In this document: positions 3,660 through 34,180 of the stretch, one piece after another
How the letters are laid out: every line of letters starts with the position of its first letter
Position numbering within the stretch: the stretch's first letter is position 1
DNA from: Candidatus Nanohalarchaeota archaeon QJJ-7
Lineage (GTDB): Archaea; Nanohalarchaeota; Nanosalinia; Nanosalinales; Nanohalalkaliarchaeaceae
Reading direction: 5' to 3'
DNA: 34,180 nucleotides
Assembly (NCBI GenBank): GCA_022865215.1
Contig: JALIDP010000006.1
Location: forward strand, 1-34,180
The notes under the pieces: generated by a model
The model's input: the letters and a program-made list of their open reading frames with translations, nothing else
Database searches by the model: none
Told to the model about the DNA's origin: nothing
Translations under genes and position numbers: made by a program

Positions 3660-3900
3660 CTTCCCGGAGAACGGTAGCCGACCGCTGAGTAAAAGTGTTG
3701 GTCGCGCCACGACAGCTGTTCCGTCGGAGATTCAGGGGTTCCGTCCCGCCCCTTTTCCTTTCTTTCTCACTCCACTTCCTCTACTCTATACCTCTCTTTT
3801 TCACATCCCCTGAGCTTCTGTGAATGTGTACAGAGAACTGTTAAAGTGTGAATGGCCCTGCGAGAGGAGGCCAGTGGAGATATGAAACGATTTTAAATAG
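3660..3900 (+). repeat. S-layer tail copy 4 plus decayed leader and TATA box
   Basis: CCGACCGCTGAGTAAAAG and the following TCGCGCCACGACAGCTGTTCCGT match the S-layer end near 530-580. The reading frame is lost, but a stem (CGACC...GGTCG) remains. A pyrimidine tract follows. The leader then recurs in diverged form (CTGTGAATGTGTACAGAGAA, GTTAAAGTGTGA), ending in TATA box TTTTAAATAG (3891-3900). Confidence 0.6.
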
Positions 3901-4151: not shown

Positions 4152-4221
4152 TGGACCGGTCGGGATTTGAACCCTGAGCTTCCGCAGGATGCGAGGATAT
4201 CAAATCCCGGAGAGAATGAAA
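4152..4221 (-). repeat. Downstream copy of the tRNA-Ala 3' end with hairpin
   Basis: The first 23 bases (4152-4174) exactly repeat the 3' end of tRNA-Ala (4222-4244). In between lies an inverted partial copy (TCAAATCCCGG), so the minus strand can pair GGGATTTGA with TCAAATCCC. This is one of four such downstream copies in the window. An att-like scar or a miniature element are both possible. Confidence 0.75.
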
Positions 4222-4375
4222 TGGACCGGTCGGGATTTGAACCCGAGGCCTCTCCCTGTCTCGCGTCGAAGCCCTCCTCGGAGATAAGAGACCTCCTCTG
4301 ACCGCTGTCTCTCCTTCAAGGTCGAGAAAGCGGTGTTGCGAAGGGAGCGTTCTAGCCAGGCTGAACTACCGGCCC
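4222..4375 (-). tRNA. tRNA-Ala(CGC) with 79-nt intron
   Basis: Acceptor strands GGGCCGG and CCGGTCC pair with G3:U70, the alanine identity element, and A73 follows. The D stem is GTTC/GAAC, the anticodon stem CTCCC/GGGAG, and the loop TTCGCA plus A gives anticodon CGC. T arm is TCGGG TTCAAAT CCCGA. Exons are 4337-4375 and 4222-4257; the intron 4258-4336 lies at the canonical 37/38 site. No CCA is encoded. It is probably co-transcribed with tRNA-His upstream, as no TATA box sits at the right distance. Confidence 0.88.
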
Positions 4376-4449: not shown

Positions 4450-4509
4450 GGGCGAGGGCCGGGCCGAAAACTGACGTTTTCTTGACGACCCTCGTACGCT
4501 TCGCTCAAA
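4450..4509 (-). repeat. Downstream copy of the tRNA-His 3' end with hairpin
   Basis: GGGCGAGGGCCGGG at 4450-4463 repeats the tRNA-His end at 4510-4523, exactly 60 bases away. The insert holds the palindrome GAAAACTGACGTTTTC followed by TTGAC, a core also present near tRNA-Ser (15774-15800) and, inverted, near tRNA-Pro (6738-6761). Confidence 0.7.
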
Positions 4510-4510
4510 G

Positions 4511-4644
4511 GGCGAGGGCCGGGATTCGAACCCGGGGCGGGAGCGCCACAGGCTCCTAGTTTAAGCCACTCCAAACTCCGTAAGGAGTTTGCGCGTGGTT
4601 GAAACGCCACGCATTGGAGTTTAAGCCACTAACCTACCCTCGCC
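4511..4644 (-). tRNA. tRNA-His(GTG) with ~60-nt insertion in the D arm
   Basis: The anticodon stem-loop GGAGC CTGTGGC GCTCC gives GTG. The gene encodes the extra G-1 opposite C73, the histidine hallmark. T arm is CCGGG TTCGAAT CCCGG. The 13-base segment AGTGGCTTAAACT of the D arm occurs twice (4618-4630 and 4558-4570) around hairpin sequence, so the gene is interrupted by 60 bases at an unusual position. A TATA box (CTTTAAAAGC, minus strand, ~4668-4677) is at leaderless spacing from the 5' end. It may be a D-arm intron or an inserted element. Confidence 0.85.
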
Positions 4645-6697: not shown

Positions 6698-6781
6698 GGC
6701 GGGGTGGTCGTCCAGTTCCTCGGAAGAAGTGGTGGACGGAGAAAACCGTCAGGTTTTCGAAACCCCCGCCTGAGCGTAAGC
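6698..6781 (+). repeat. Upstream copy of the tRNA-Pro 5' end with hairpin
   Basis: GGCGGGGTGGTCG (6698 on) imitates the tRNA start GGCGGGGTAGTGT (6782 on), and CCCCCGCC (6763-6770) is its complement, so a foldback forms in front of the true gene. The loop contains GAAAACCGTCAGGTTTTC, the inverted form of the core seen near tRNA-His and tRNA-Ser. Confidence 0.65.
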
Positions 6782-6852
6782 GGCGGGGTAGTGTAGTGGC
6801 ATCATTGGACGCTGGGGGCGTTCAGAACCGGGTTCGATTCCCGGCCCTGCCA
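6782..6852 (+). tRNA. tRNA-Pro(GGG)
   Basis: The 71-base gene has acceptor GGCGGGG/CCCTGCC plus A73, anticodon arm GGACG CTGGGGG CGTTC (GGG) and T arm CCGGG TTCGATT CCCGG. The D stem is weak in my folding. It is followed by the palindrome GCCATCTCAAAGAGATGGC, which uses the last tRNA bases, and by another stem GGTAC...GTACC. Confidence 0.88.
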
Positions 6853-8824: not shown

Positions 8825-8889
8825 TGCGGGGGGTCGGATTTGAACACGAAGCTCGCCTCCGGGAGCTTCTCGGGGTTCAAATCCCTTGA
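8825..8889 (-). repeat. Downstream copy of the tRNA-Leu(TAA) 3' end with hairpin
   Basis: The 21 bases at 8825-8845 repeat the 3' end of the tRNA (8890-8910). The insert is the hairpin core CGAAGCTCGCCTCCGGGAGC followed by GGTTCAAATCCC, an inverted T-arm copy. The core is the same as the one after tRNA-Ser (15172-15199). Confidence 0.8.
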
Positions 8890-8976
8890 TGCGGGGGGTC
8901 GGATTTGAACCGACGAAAGGTCTGCACCTACAGGATCTTAAGTCCTGCCCCTTTGGCCGGACTTGGGTACCCCCGC
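8890..8976 (-). tRNA. tRNA-Leu(TAA)
   Basis: The 87-base uninterrupted gene has acceptor GCGGGGG/CCCCCGC plus A73, anticodon arm CAGGA CTTAAGA TCCTG (TAA), a long variable arm and T arm TCGG TTCAAAT CCGA. It sits between rpoD and rpl18e, a position also occupied by a tRNA-Leu in other euryarchaeal operons as I recall. Confidence 0.94.
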
Positions 8977-10015: not shown

Positions 10016-10062
10016 TACGAAAACACCTCGTGTTTTCTATGAAGCCGAAAATCTCCTATTTT
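10016..10062. repeat. Two hairpins between rps4 and rps11
   Basis: GAAAACACCTCGTGTTTTC and GAAAATCTCCTATTTTC are perfect short-loop palindromes with CTC-containing loops, in an otherwise tightly packed operon. They could modulate translation or mRNA processing between the two genes, or be traces of the same snapback elements seen elsewhere. Confidence 0.55.
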
Positions 10063-10070
10063 CAAATTTA

Positions 10071-11116: not shown

Positions 11117-11255
11117 TAGCCCGGCCAGGATTCGAACCTGGGTCGGGAGGCCCAGAACCTCCTATGACTGGTCCTCTGGAGTTTTGACCGTCGGACTTCT
11201 CCCTGAGATGGCCGACGGGAAGCTCGCCAGAGCTTGACCACTACACCACCGGGCT
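11117..11255 (-). tRNA. tRNA-Gln(CTG) with ~67-nt insertion in the D loop
   Basis: Acceptor AGCCCGG/CCGGGCT plus A73, D-arm start GTGTAGTGGTCA, anticodon arm GGAGG TTCTGGG CCTCC (CTG) and T arm CCAGG TTCGAAT CCTGG identify the gene. Between D-loop position ~21 and the 3' D strand (TCAT) lie about 67 extra bases with stems CCGTCGG/CCGACGG and CTCTGG/CCAGAG. This is a non-canonical intron position or an insertion. Confidence 0.85.
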
Positions 11256-11309
11256 TTTCCTCCGGTGCGTGTATCAGGCACCGCCAGGTGCGCACTACAC
11301 CACCGGGCT
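11256..11309 (-). repeat. Upstream copy of the tRNA-Gln 5' end with hairpin
   Basis: CACTACACCACCGGGCT at 11293-11309 repeats the tRNA 5' end at 11239-11255, 54 bases away. The insert contains GGCACCGCCAGGTGCG, matching the cores GCACTGCCAGGTGCG and GCACCGTCAGGTGCG upstream of tRNA-Ser. A TATA-like GCTTTAACT (minus strand, ~11329-11337) is spaced for the copy, not for the real tRNA. Confidence 0.7.
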
Positions 11310-15142: not shown

Positions 15143-15232
15143 CGGGAGAACGCCCGGGGCCGGATTCGAACACGAAGCTCGCCTCCGGGAGCTTCTCGGG
15201 GTTCGGAATCCGGCTGATATACTTCGGGAGAA
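15143..15232 (-). repeat. Downstream copy of the tRNA-Ser 3' end with hairpin
   Basis: A 29-base direct repeat (15143-15171 and 15225-15253) covers the T arm, acceptor end and trailer of tRNA-Ser. The insert begins with the same core as after tRNA-Leu(TAA), CGAAGCTCGCCTCCGGGAGC, then GGTTCGGAATCC, an inverted copy matched to this tRNA's own T arm. Confidence 0.8.
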
Positions 15233-15635
15233 CGCCCGGGGCCGGATTCGAACCGGCGTAGGCGTTGCCGCCTACCCGCTCTCAACTTAGGACAGTCCTG
15301 AAATCGGAGATTTCAGTCGTGTCGAGTGAAACCTCCGGTTTCACGACAGGGCGGTACGCCCTGTTCCAAACTCCTCTGGGAGTTTGTGCACACGCACGAA
15401 CTCCGACGGAGTTCGGAGTGAAGGTCACCTGCGCTCCATTCTCGCTCGTTTCACTCGCTCGAATCCGTCTGGACTCGACCGAGCGGAGCGAGGGAGAGTG
15501 GAACTCACCTACTTCCTCCAGGAAGTAGGTTCGAACAGCTTTCCGGAGGAAAGCTGTGACGTGGTGACCTTGAGGTGGGAGGGCTCCCTCCTAAGCTCAA
15601 GGCGGGCGCATTTAGCCAGACTCTGCCACCCGGGC
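15233..15635 (-). tRNA. tRNA-Ser(TGA) with ~315-nt intron
   Basis: Acceptor GCCCGGG/CCCGGGC plus G73, a long variable arm GTAGGCG-GCAA-CGCCTAC and anticodon arm CCCGC CTTGAG|A GCGGG (TGA) identify serine. Exons are 15596-15635 and 15233-15280. The intron 15281-15595 starts CTTAGG and ends CCTAAGTTGAG, which pair next to the splice sites. It is far longer than the usual archaeal tRNA intron and filled with hairpins. Confidence 0.85.
15298..15591. repeat. Array of about eight snapback hairpins inside the tRNA-Ser intron
   Basis: Successive short-loop palindromes include CTGAAATCGGAGATTTCAG (15298), GTGAAACCTCCGGTTTCAC (15326), CAGGGCGGTACGCCCTG (15347), CAAACTCCTCTGGGAGTTTG (15367), CGAACTCCGACGGAGTTCG (15399), a 22-base one at 15509, one at 15537 (CAGCTTTCC...GGAAAGCTG) and GGGAGGGCTCCCTCC (15577). 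Several share a CTCC/GGAG-type loop, suggesting a common generating process. Confidence 0.7.
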
Positions 15636-15838
15636 CTGTGCCGCCCGGTGGGCAGATTGAGCACCGTCAGGTGCGTGACTCTGCCACCCGGGCTTTCTAT
15701 CGGGTGGCAGTTCGAGCACTGCCAGGTGCGTGACTCTGCCACCCGGGCTCTTTCCTCGCCGGGTGGCTCTGTCGAAAACGCTGGCGCGTTTTCTTGACCA
15801 GTGAACCTGGAAGGGTACACTGGATCTGCCACCCGGTC
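15636..15838 (-). repeat. Three tandem upstream copies of the tRNA-Ser 5' end with hairpins
   Basis: GACTCTGCCACCCGGGC of the tRNA 5' end (15619-15635) recurs at 15677-15693 and 15732-15748, and as GATCTGCCACCCGGTC at 15823-15838. Inverted copies (CGGGTGGCAG, GGGTGGCTCTGTC) alternate with them, so each unit folds. Cores are GCACCGTCAGGTGCG, GCACTGCCAGGTGCG and GAAAACGCTGGCGCGTTTTC. Confidence 0.78.
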
Positions 15839-24769: not shown

Positions 24770-25433
24770 CGTCCTCACCTCCTTTACGGTCCTCTAGCCA
24801 ATCGACCAGCGTCTTCCGGTCCTTGTTATCCTTCTCTGCCTCGAGAACCTCTTCTACAGGGAGATCTTTTTCTTCGACTGCGTCCTTAACGTCAGGGATG
24901 TTCTCCTGGACGAGTTCGATGTAATCCTCTCCTTCTCCCGTATCCTCTTCCATCTCTTCCTGTTCTTTCTCCGCATCTAAATCCTCTTCTGTTTCTTCTT
25001 CCTTTTCGTCTTCCTCGGGCTCGACACTGATCTCTTCCTTCTCTTCTTCTGTAACCTCGTATTTCTCCAGCCTCTTCTCGTCGTCGAGGTCCAGTCTCGT
25101 TATCTTCAGGTTGGAAGGTCGCAGCGCGACCATGGTTTCAGACTCGTCTACTGATTCTGTCTCTATACCGTCGACGTAGACCTTCCCCTCCTCTGTATCT
25201 ATATCGTCCACTCGTCCGGCCTCGCCGGAGAAATCTCCTCTCATAACTTCTACCTGATCACCGGTGCGGAGGGGGACGCTCCTCGTACCTATCTTCTCTC
25301 TCACCGAGCTCTCCAGGTGGGAGTGGAGGAACCTTTTCCTGTGGTGGTGAGGTGCGTTCTCCTTAAACTTCCTCTGCTTGGAAGGATCTTCAGAACTCTT
25401 CCAGCTCCGGCTCCAGTCATTGTTGTTTTCCAT
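24762..25433 (-). CDS. rpl24: 50S ribosomal protein uL24 with acidic C-terminal extension
   Basis: The N-terminal ~115 residues are standard archaeal uL24 (KENAPHHHRKRFLHSHLESS, then KOW domain VEVMRGDFSGEAGRVDDIDT). An added tail has a Glu-rich stretch and a ~46-residue helical module YIELVQENIPDVKDAVEEKD...EAEKDNKDRKTLVDWLEDR. Two close copies of this module end uS3 in the same operon. The protein is about twice the family length. ATG 25433 is chosen; the GTG at 25442 overlaps rpl14. Confidence 0.93.
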   Translation of the reverse strand: MENNNDWSRSWKSSEDPSKQRKFKENAPHHHRKRFLHSHLESSVREKIGTRSVPLRTGDQVEVMRGDFSGEAGRVDDIDTEEGKVYVDGIETESVDESETMVALRPSNLKITRLDLDDEKRLEKYEVTEEEKEEISVEPEEDEKEEETEEDLDAEKEQEEMEEDTGEGEDYIELVQENIPDVKDAVEEKDLPVEEVLEAEKDNKDRKTLVDWLEDRKGGEDGD

Positions 25434-25438
25434 ATCTT

Positions 25439-25837
25439 TCACACCACCATTGAAGCTATCTTGCCGATCGCGGCGTGTCTTTCGACCACTTCCTTCGCCA
25501 CAACTCCTTTTATCCGGTTACCTTTCGGGATATCCGATTCCTCGAGGAGAACGGCTGCGTTATCCTCGAAACTTATCCTCAGTCCTTCCGGCCGCTTGTA
25601 TTCTTTCCTCTGGCGTATGATAACCGCGTTGTAGACCTCTCCCTTAACGTCCTGGTCACCTTTAGTGATCCTTACTGTGACTGTGTCCGATACTCCTGCT
25701 CTGGTCCTCCTCTGCCTGGTACCAGCCCTCGACTGTACCCCGATGATCTTCAGTTCGTCCGCTCCTGAGTTATCTGCACATACGAGTTTGGTGCCTGCTT
25801 CGAGGCTCTTGGTGATGCTAGAAGCTACTGCTTTCAT
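25439..25837 (-). CDS. rpl14: 50S ribosomal protein uL14
   Basis: The 132-residue product begins MKAVASSITKSLEAGTKLVC and has ADNSGADELKIIGVQSRAGT and VYNAVIIRQRKEYKRPEGLR, the uL14 core at the subunit interface. ATG 25837 is used; the track start 25894 lies in rps17. Confidence 0.95.
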   Translation of the reverse strand: MKAVASSITKSLEAGTKLVCADNSGADELKIIGVQSRAGTRQRRTRAGVSDTVTVRITKGDQDVKGEVYNAVIIRQRKEYKRPEGLRISFEDNAAVLLEESDIPKGNRIKGVVAKEVVERHAAIGKIASMVV

Positions 25838-31658: not shown

Positions 31659-34180
31659 TTATCCTTTCACGTTGACGACCGGTCGCATCCTGGCCACCTT
31701 CCTACCTATACCTAGAGCGTCAGTGACTTTCACAACCTCGTCCACGTCCTTGTAGACCCCTGGGGCCTCCTCTGCTATGGTTGAACCGCTCTGTGCTTTC
31801 ACGTAGATCCCTTCCCTCTCAAGATCGTCCTGCACGTCTTCCCCCCAGTAGTCCTCTTTCGCCTGCGTCCTTGACATGAGACGGCCTGCGCCGTGCGCGC
31901 TGGAACCGAAAGTCTTCTTCATCGCCTCCTCTGTCCCCTTCAGAACGTACGATGAAGTTCCCATGGAACCCGGTATCAGAACTGGCTGTCCCACGTCACG
32001 GTACGCCTCAGGGACTTCAGGATGGCCGGCAGGGAACGCCCGTGTCGAACCCTTTCTATGCACGTAAACCTCCCTCTCCTCCCCGTCTATCTCGTGCTCC
32101 TCCTTCTTCGCTATATTGTGCGCCACATCGTATAACAGGTGCATGCCGAGCTCCTGCCACGACCTGTCGAATATCCTCTCGAACGCCTTCCTAGCCTGGT
32201 ACATAACCAGCTGCCTGTTAACCCAGGCAAAGTTGATAGCGGCGTTCATCGCCCCGTAATACTGATCCTCAAGCTCCGAACCTGACGGGGCGTAGGCAAG
32301 CTCTTTATCCGGCAACCCTTCCAGCTCCTCCTGGTGCTCCTGCTCTATCCTCCTCAAGAAATCGGAACACACCTGGTGGCCGAGACCTCGGGAACCGCAG
32401 TGGATGGTCACCACGACCTGGTCCTCCTCCAGCCCGTAGTCCTCAGCTGTCTCCTCATCGTATATCTCGGAGACTACCTGAACTTCGAGGAAATGGTTGC
32501 CGCTGCCCAGTGAACCGACCTGCTCCTTCGCACGGTCCTTCGCCTTCTCGGAGATGTGTTCGACCGATGCTTCCTCCCTGTATCCCTCGTCCTCGCAGTG
32601 TTCCAGGTCATCTTCCACCGCGTAACCATTGTCCTTGGCCCAGTGAACCCCGTTCAGACAGATCTCCTCTACGTCTCCCTTGGAAAGGCTTCCCGCGACC
32701 GCCCCCTCCCCCAGACCTGAAGGAACCTTCTGAAACAGGATGTTAGCCAGCTGCTTCTCCTTTCCCTTTATATCGTCGTAGGCGAGGTCTGTCTTCATGA
32801 CGCGTACTCCGCAGTTGGATACAATGAAGCTGTTCGCCTGGAAGTTGTGCTCCTCGTGCTCGACCCCTATATCGTAGACAGGCTTCCTGCCTGAGAACTC
32901 GATTGATTGGATCTCCACGGGAACAGAGAGGTTGTCCTTGACCTCTATTTCATCCTGGTGCTCCTCGAAGTCAGGGAAATCCTCAGGCGGACGTATCTTT
33001 GTATCTCGCCCGCTCCAGATACTTCTCTCGATGAACCGGTCGTTGATCTCAAAGCGCTGTTTCAGTTCTTTGGGCGCGGATCCGTTGTTGTAGAGGGACA
33101 CTGCTTTCTCTGCTATCTGGGCCCTTCTCTGTATCGCGTGTTCCTTCAGTTTCGTGTACTGGACGACCTTCATCGCTTCCTTCTGCTTTTCGAGATTGTA
33201 CCGGTAACCTACAGTGGTGAAGAACCGGGTAAGGTTCTCGGGTTTGCTGCTGATCCCGAAACGGAGCCGCAACATGTCGTGTTCTGCGTTACTGTCCGTC
33301 TCGAACGCTTCCAGGGCTGTAGTTTCGATATCAAGGGATCTGAGCAGGTCTTTGAGTTCCAGCATGAACTGTTCACCTTCCTCTCTTTTCTCTTCTGTCC
33401 GGTTCTGGGAGACCTGTGGTGTATAGAAATTCTTTCGGTACACGGCTGAAGGTTTGCTCATCTCGGCCCCGAAGAATGCCGAGAGGTACAATGCCTTCTG
33501 CCAGTCCGCCAGCTCTGAAAGGTAATCCGGGACGGTAAACCCGCTTTCCACCTTTTTCCCTGACGGAGCTCCGAGCTCTATGAGGAGCTTCTGGAACGCT
33601 CTCGATCCACAGGAGACGCTGGTCTCCGTTGCCTCGAACTCTTTACCTTCGACCTCGTGCTGTCGGTCCCGCTCGTAGATGCTTGACGGCGAGAACCCGA
33701 GCTGCCTTATATCCCGCTGGATGGTTTCGAGATCCTCCTTATCGGCGTAGAAGGTTGTTTTCCCTGTTTTATTGAAAGCTCCGTCTCCTGTATGGAACCC
33801 TACCAATTTCAGCAGGATGTTGAATTCGTGGTCCGTGGTCCGGAGAGGGAGCAGATCCCTGTCGGTGAGCGCTCTCACGAGCTGGGGATTATCGCCGGAG
33901 AAATCGTCTCTATCGAGAACTACTTTTTCTTCCAGCTCCTCGTCCGGAAGACCCTCGAAAGGCCTGACCATCACGGTATCTCCCTCTTCAAGGTCTTCCA
34001 GTTCCTTCATGCCCTCTGGGGTGAGGAAAGGATGGTCATCTGTCGCTTCGATTGTATCCCCGGTCCTGGTTTCAACCTGGTAAACTTCGTCTTCTTCTCG
34101 CTCCATGAAGAGGTGTATATCGGATTCTTCTGAACGTTCGGACGCTACTGTGGCCCTCTCACTTTCGAAATCATCCTTCA
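31659..34180 (-). CDS. rtcB: RNA-splicing ligase RtcB interrupted by an intein (N-terminal part outside window)
   Basis: The frame is open from 31659 to the window edge. The C-terminal 384 residues are RtcB: CGVRVMKTDL, GLGEGAVAGSL, GSLGSGNHFLEVQ, VVTIHCGSRGLGHQV, LLYDVAHNIAKKEEH, VHRKGSTRAFPAGHPE (catalytic His region) and PGSMGTSSYVLKG. Before Cys (codon 32811-32813) comes an intein: block B TGDTIEATDDHPFLT, LAGLIDADG-like LVGFHTGDG and LSAFFGAEMS, block F VYDIGVEHEEHNFQANSF and block G IVSN|C. Insertion lies exactly before the metal-binding Cys of the DINCGVR site. RtcB ligates tRNA exons after intron removal. The N-extein and intein start are not visible. Confidence 0.95.
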   Translation of the reverse strand, partial: KDDFESERATVASERSEESDIHLFMEREEDEVYQVETRTGDTIEATDDHPFLTPEGMKELEDLEEGDTVMVRPFEGLPDEELEEKVVLDRDDFSGDNPQLVRALTDRDLLPLRTTDHEFNILLKLVGFHTGDGAFNKTGKTTFYADKEDLETIQRDIRQLGFSPSSIYERDRQHEVEGKEFEATETSVSCGSRAFQKLLIELGAPSGKKVESGFTVPDYLSELADWQKALYLSAFFGAEMSKPSAVYRKNFYTPQVSQNRTEEKREEGEQFMLELKDLLRSLDIETTALEAFETDSNAEHDMLRLRFGISSKPENLTRFFTTVGYRYNLEKQKEAMKVVQYTKLKEHAIQRRAQIAEKAVSLYNNGSAPKELKQRFEINDRFIERSIWSGRDTKIRPPEDFPDFEEHQDEIEVKDNLSVPVEIQSIEFSGRKPVYDIGVEHEEHNFQANSFIVSNCGVRVMKTDLAYDDIKGKEKQLANILFQKVPSGLGEGAVAGSLSKGDVEEICLNGVHWAKDNGYAVEDDLEHCEDEGYREEASVEHISEKAKDRAKEQVGSLGSGNHFLEVQVVSEIYDEETAEDYGLEEDQVVVTIHCGSRGLGHQVCSDFLRRIEQEHQEELEGLPDKELAYAPSGSELEDQYYGAMNAAINFAWVNRQLVMYQARKAFERIFDRSWQELGMHLLYDVAHNIAKKEEHEIDGEEREVYVHRKGSTRAFPAGHPEVPEAYRDVGQPVLIPGSMGTSSYVLKGTEEAMKKTFGSSAHGAGRLMSRTQAKEDYWGEDVQDDLEREGIYVKAQSGSTIAEEAPGVYKDVDEVVKVTDALGIGRKVARMRPVVNVKG
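32814..34180 (-). mobile_element. Intein (protein-splicing element with LAGLIDADG-type endonuclease) in RtcB
   Basis: At least 455 residues of intein lie in the window, ending with Asn (32814-32816) before Cys+1. Two dodecapeptide-like motifs (LLKLVGFHTGDGAF and LYLSAFFGAEMS) have replaced the consensus acidic residue in the second one (GAE for DAD-G), so homing activity may be lost. Splicing motifs look intact on the C-side (HN...VSN|C). Confidence 0.88.

Follow-up and report, generated by a model that had tools for sequence, protein, structure and literature searches.

In a little-known halophilic archaeal lineage, most of the tRNA genes examined carry hairpin inserts of 50-90 nt, as seen in the DNA stretch analyzed here (34,180 bases, hereafter the window). 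Each insert couples a duplicate of the tRNA 5' end, if it lies upstream, or of the 3' end, if it lies downstream, to an arm complementary to that spare copy. The inserts look mobile, appear not to have been described before, and may feed tRNA introns. They were characterized by their tRNA copies, size classes, pairing, strand bias, and presence or absence between genomes. The whole account proposed here, fold-back copying or masking of the spare copy included, is that they are miniature non-coding mobile-type hairpin elements (probability about 0.6). Its core, mobile-type miniature hairpin insertion with target duplication, is considered highly probable in view of the repeats abutting the hairpins, the discrete unit sizes, the filled and empty sites, and the stems that vary but stay paired.

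The window is contig C31 of a 753-kb assembly (G000; 78% complete, 34 contigs), which is an incomplete Nanohaloarchaeota MAG. The comparison included a sister genus within the same family (G001) and the same-order relatives Nanohaloarchaea SG9 (G008), M3_22 (G015), and NHA25 (G014), and a set of 27 genomes was used for protein-family searches. Relatives were identified by alignment of uL24, and a scan with a TraB-family protein gave none that were named. Anticodons were assigned partly by eye, and the conclusions rest on DNA sequence and between-genome comparison only.

Hairpin cores and their families

The earlier note had described three hairpin core types recurring at tRNA loci of the window, and all of them were found at the tRNAs named there, with a distribution wider than first described. 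Core 1 (CGAAGCTCGCCTCCGGGAGC) is located at 8847-8866 and 15173-15192, adjoining tRNA-Leu(TAA) and tRNA-Ser, and these are its only two copies genome-wide with at most three mismatches (reversed control, 0). Core 2 is located at 4465-4482 (tRNA-His), 15773-15794 (tRNA-Ser), and, on the opposite strand, 6740-6759 (tRNA-Pro), being in transcript sense relative to its own tRNA in all three cases, and core 3 lies beside tRNA-Ser (twice) and tRNA-Gln. Read on the tRNA strand, core 1 is A[GAAGCTC..GAGCTTC]G and has the form of core 2, which is A[GAAAAC..GTTTTC]G. The three types are accordingly reclassified as two families: cores 1 and 2 constitute one structural family, hairpin A (A[GAAR..YTTC]G), and core 3 a second, hairpin C (CGCAC..GTGCTC). 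Of the six copies of A[GAAR..YTTC]G in the window, five lie beside tRNAs and the sixth in the uS4-uS11 junction.

The clustering of the cores at tRNA genes, also proposed previously, was confirmed. Hairpins with a stem of at least 7 occurred at 5.8/kb in tRNA territory versus 0.38/kb in the rest of the window, perfect hairpins being 15 times denser inside that territory than outside. Genome-wide, the pattern AGAAAAN{5,14}TTTTCG had 17 matches in G000, 18 in G001, 34 in SG9, and 27 in NHA25 (reversed controls, 0 to 6), with only background levels in many relatives and no match in G024. Assigned by position, 14 of the 17 matches in G000 were at tRNA genes, 2 at gene junctions, and 1 was attributed to chance. 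Moreover, the stem was extended by two additional base pairs (six types in all) in 53/62 matches from three high-copy genomes compared with just 6/57 matches from low-copy genomes, indicating that the stem sequence varies while its pairing is kept.

In the vicinity of tRNAs, hairpin A had its A..G flanks in tRNA sense in 35/37 scored cases (totals summed by the authors), suggesting either that the RNA structure is important or that insertion tracks the direction of transcription. This strand bias, absent from the earlier note like the complementary arm described below, is unusual for a DNA transposon and counts against the mobile reading. A rare exception was observed in a Glu-like tRNA with a D-arm insertion (L151, contig C9 of G000, ~401-540), in which the hairpin A[GAAAACC..GGTTTTC]G is antisense. 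A kink-turn reading of the GA flanks was dropped because only some copies fit it.

Units at the ends of tRNA genes

In a 3' unit, the intact tRNA is followed by a spacer, a complement of the T-loop region, a hairpin, and a second tRNA copy running from the T-loop to the last base. A 5' unit, which precedes the intact tRNA, begins with a duplicate of the tRNA's initial 12-17 bases; a hairpin or a pair of hairpins, the complement of the duplicate, and a spacer follow. The tRNA-Ser(TGA) gene (15233..15635, minus strand, limits set from sequence), which has a long intron with many hairpins, carries both kinds. Its 3' unit (15151..15232, minus strand; fold z -2.8) comprises a spacer, the complement CCGGATTCcGAAC, the core 1 form of hairpin A at 15172-15199, and a duplicate of the tRNA 3' end, the two forming a 29-nt identical repeat. 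On its 5' side there are three units in tandem, namely unit 1 with a 5'-end copy, hairpin C, and a complement (15636..15693, minus strand), unit 2 with hairpin C (15694..15748, minus strand), and unit 3 with a 5'-end copy, hairpin 1, hairpin A (15773-15794), and the complement GCCACCCGG (15749..15837, minus strand; z -6.1).

Similar 3' units were identified at tRNA-Leu(TAA) (8890..8976, minus strand), where the unit (8825..8889, minus strand) contains the complement GGATTTGAAC, hairpin A (core 1), and a 21-nt 3'-end copy, and at an intron-containing tRNA (4222-4375; Gly according to ARAGORN, Ala by eye), where it contains the complement CGGGATTTGA, hairpin C, and a 3'-end copy (4152..4221, minus strand). 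tRNA-His has a 3' unit with hairpin A at 4465-4482 (4450..4509, minus strand) and, by eye, a D-arm insertion flanked by two copies of GTGGCTTAAACT (4558..4629, minus strand). Further 5' units precede tRNA-Pro(GGG) (6782..6852, plus strand), with the copy GGCGGGGTGGT, hairpin 1, hairpin A (6740-6759), the complement CCCCGCC, and a spacer (6698..6781, plus strand), and tRNA-Gln, called Arg with an intron by ARAGORN, with the copy GCCCGGTGGTGTAGTG, hairpin C, and a complement containing a one-base bulge (11255..11308, minus strand). In addition, an mRNA-type double hairpin, with repeats that are not clear, lies in the uS4-uS11 junction directly upstream of the uS11 start codon (10017..10064, minus strand). 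The window units folded better than shuffled sequences, 8 of 10 having z values of about -2.8 to -6.1, and the value was -1.8 for both the tRNA-His and the uS4-uS11 unit.

Beyond the window, copies of the tRNA end on the expected side flanked 18/29 tRNA genes in G000 and 16/19 in G001, and the mirror control, which looks for 5' fragments on the downstream side and 3' fragments on the upstream side, gave 0/48 tRNA genes for the G000 and G001 family. Among other relatives, 7/57 sampled tRNAs passed the copy test, five of them with the same unit by eye, and the copy, hairpin, and complement arrangement was also present in other families (L046, L113, L116, and L048). The 5' units were bimodal in length (52-59 or 83-88, plus one of 111), the 3' units were mostly 50-82, and tandem 3' units were found in G001. 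Long 5' units and mRNA-type units have two hairpins, and short units have one hairpin together with the copy/complement stem.

Several other features were observed in this material. A bulge of one or two bases in the complement strand, about five pairs from the inner end of the copy/complement helix, occurs in L010, L091, and the window unit at 11255-11308, and its recurrence in three unrelated tRNAs suggests a structural feature rather than decay. Two tRNA-Leu genes of G001 (L081 and L092) have in common an upstream double-hairpin block of a different type, GCGGGGTTC..GAACCCGG..AAACGGATC..CCGTTT, without an obvious copy/complement helix. The window also contains repeats at 529-581 and 3675-3727 (53 nt, 85%) and at 626-757 and 1484-1615 (132 nt, 93%), the 53-nt repeat holding a structured-looking block, CCGACCGCTGAGTAAAAG..GCTGTTCCGTYGG, which might be a small RNA.

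The complementary arm and the working copy

Contiguous complementarity alone was significant in just 6/16 5' units and 13/29 3' units, which counts against the preferred account. As this test is weak, a permutation of fold energies was adopted. The 5' inserts folded with their own copies summed to -490.6 kcal/mol compared with -432.5 kcal/mol (SD 11.9) when copies were shuffled among loci, and 0/300 permutations reached the former value, indicating that the complement is locus-specific. Such a complement is also predicted by local template switching, in which the nascent strand doubles back at the tRNA and synthesizes its own complement before resuming at the start of the fragment, producing the order copy, complement, copy at both tRNA ends without any mobile element. 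This process may be the origin of the complementary arm, but it leaves unexplained the hairpin sequence common to loci and genera, the two size classes of 5' units, and the strand bias, and as a full alternative to mobile-type insertion it is considered rather unlikely.

By eye, the paired copy was always the spare one, which at tRNAs is the outer fragment and at mRNAs the copy of the start codon lying upstream (e.g., GTAAAATCAT/ATGATTTTAC in L159 and TGAG/CTCA in L152). Among 29 3' units, the inner copy paired better with the acceptor strand than the outer copy in 6, equally in 23, and worse in none. The median distance from an upstream TATA-like box was 34 bases for tRNAs lacking units and 34.5 bases for the outer copy of 5' units, indicating that the units lie inside the old transcription unit. 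The protein Rpp30 of RNase P is encoded in G000 and G001, so the leader should be removable in the ordinary way. The Rfam model of archaeal RNase P RNA (RF00373) had no match in G000, G001, G002, and G007 and a weak one in G006; the RNA may be strongly diverged, or missing through assembly incompleteness. Loss of RNase P as the cause of the 5' units was rejected on the grounds that RF00373 was likewise negative in G007 and weak in G006, and that Rpp30 is present.

The TATA spacing, which fits a start at the outer copy, and the undetected RNase P RNA of G000 and G001 would also suit terminal introns, a reading in which the outer tRNA copies would be the genuine exons and splicing would remove the unit together with the inner copy. 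In its standard form, this intron reading was rejected for terminal units, in view of the better acceptor pairing of the inner copy, of Rpp30 in both genomes, and of the bulge-helix-bulge motif, which is not expected at a direct repeat and was not seen at the terminal units; any version of it is very improbable.

Gene junctions and presence or absence between genomes

The earlier suggestion that the cores are specific to tRNAs did not extend to a general rule, given that ribosomal-operon junctions in other Nanohaloarchaeota genera also carry them, with hairpin A at the start codons. In SG9 and NHA25, most sampled hairpin matches were at gene junctions beside start codons and were accompanied by short repeats (AGATGAGTAA, GACAATGA, and GTGGTGTAAAA are examples). 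Overall, a direct repeat at least 9 long abutted the hairpin in 29/88 instances versus 2.5 expected with flanks permuted, an excess that comes mainly from the tRNA cases.

The rpl14-rpl24 (uL14-uL24) junction was readable in 24 genomes. It was filled in NHA25, SG9, M3_22, and G001, each with a different insert, and short in the remaining ones, including G000 (25430..25450, minus strand, in the window). Moreover, M3_22 and G003, which belong to one genus and are 84% identical at this locus, differ by a single clean insert of 45 bp. The repeat at the M3_22 insertion is imperfect and repeats are not visible at some other junctions, which counts against the preferred account. The earlier view of mobile insertion with target duplication instead of slippage is supported by the repeats, discrete sizes, filled and empty sites, and covariation, whereas the enzyme-encoding relative that it suggested looking for was not recovered in the searches described below.

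These comparisons also bear on whether the units are functional, non-mobile RNA elements under selection (leaders, trailers, or junctions, e.g., processing or translation signals) in which the duplications are secondary. Sense orientation, stem covariation, the location beside start codons and tRNA ends, and two compensatory pairs seen by eye between the tRNA-Pro units of the window and L018 are all in line with such a role. However, the units are not conserved at orthologous tRNAs of two genera (those at tRNA-Glu and tRNA-Pro are not common to G000 and G001) or at rpl14-rpl24 across genomes, and many tRNAs have none; function without mobility is considered unlikely. The spare tRNA copies are mostly identical to the functional copy, which could reflect constraint rather than youth and to that extent counts against the mobile account.

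Mobilizing enzymes, possible viral origin, and splicing

Searches of the 27 genomes for two mobilizing families, Y1 transposase and reverse transcriptase (RT), yielded no candidate mobilizing enzyme. The Y1 (HUH) transposase PF01797 was found in 0/27 with positive controls, on which ground IS200/IS605 or RAYT mobilization was rejected. The RT PF00078 was found only in M3_22 and G006 (2/27), both outside the heavily loaded family, and was absent in G000, G001, SG9, and NHA25, so that retrotransposition of the target-primed (TPRT) or SINE-like kind was rejected as well.

An intact tRNA followed by a 3'-end piece is the signature of an att site, and the units could be what viruses or plasmids left behind after a tyrosine recombinase had inserted them at tRNA ends, the tRNA fragments then being att-like remnants. 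This would fit the proposal of Sugahara et al. (PMC3293823) that integration is a route to tRNA introns and fragments. Nevertheless, the inserts are only 50-90 bp with hairpins and complements and with no tyrosine integrase gene inside, and the same hairpin is present at mRNA junctions without tRNA sequence. Two specific pattern scans of IMG/VR had no match, and a bare 19-mer had two, about the chance expectation. A viral vector was dismissed on these scans, and integration scars are a very remote prospect.

The same hairpins are also present in internal tRNA introns of the G000/G001 family (L014, L050, L065, L094, L096, and L153), a candidate bulge-helix-bulge in L094 being seen by eye and absent from the minimum-energy fold. 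For a normal tRNA, the predicted D-arm insertion of tRNA-His must be spliced from the RNA. The tRNA splicing endonuclease PF01974 is encoded in 27/27 genomes, and the tRNA-splicing ligase RtcB, with an intein splicing domain, is encoded on the same contig as the disrupted tRNAs (31659-34106, minus strand; the frame starts inside, with the contig end near).

Proposed mechanism and implications

In the proposed mechanism, an element of about 45-90 bp with one or two hairpins (A and/or C) would be moved by an enzyme and insert into a transcribed locus, highly transcribed or single-stranded DNA probably being favored as target, and would duplicate 6-29 bp of that target. A tRNA gene hit at one end would stay intact next to a spare fragment, and at an operon junction, the downstream gene would retain its start codon. 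The complementary arm, whether produced by fold-back copying during insertion or through selection for masking the spare copy, would make the spare fold away in RNA. Since internal inserts need splicing, with the endonuclease encoded and RtcB in the window, inserts inside tRNAs may seed or enlarge introns.

More tentatively, and with considerable doubt, the units could represent miniature mobile elements of a novel class. Insertion of such an element would itself generate the complement of the target by fold-back synthesis, masking the duplicate in RNA from birth; the elements could then colonize both essential tRNA genes and the start codons of operons without harm and would be a source of archaeal tRNA introns. 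No account was found of hairpin mobile elements with an arm complementary to the duplicated target, and no published description of such units in Nanohaloarchaea was found in the open-access literature. How archaea gain tRNA introns and fragments is an open question, and the filled and empty sites suggest that this lineage has been caught mid-process. If correct, a mobile unit that conceals the essential-gene copy arising from its insertion would represent a novel route to parasite tolerance. Furthermore, annotation of Nanohaloarchaeota genomes may mistake hidden tRNA inserts and partial tRNAs for missing or broken genes.

Comparison with known systems

The units resemble REP/REPIN sequences mobilized by RAYT/Y1 in being short palindromic hairpins that are often paired, but they have target duplications and their host genomes lack the Y1 transposase (27 genomes). 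Like MITEs, they are short and non-autonomous, with target duplication and insertion at gene junctions, whereas their duplications are not fixed in size (6-29 bp), their strand bias is strong, and no autonomous partner was found among Y1 and RT families. Integrative elements of tRNA 3' ends (SSV and pNOB8 types) likewise combine an intact tRNA with a tRNA fragment; in contrast, the present units are 50-90 bp, contain no integrase, and also occupy 5' ends and mRNA junctions. A 2010 study, as cited in PMC4090602, described tRNA introns whose sequences are similar between different tRNA genes within a single archaeal lineage; according to that citation the introns lie within tRNAs, whereas the present units are mostly outside the intact tRNA and also at mRNA junctions. 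The double-hairpin elements of Allomyces mitochondria and repetitive hairpin elements related to them (PMC2800124) are alike in being tiny, dispersed, non-coding paired-hairpin units present or absent between relatives, although no sequence relation is claimed. Flanking target duplication is reported to be lacking in the Allomyces elements (PMC2800124), whereas the present units, located in an archaeal chromosome, have target duplications and an arm complementary to the duplicated target.
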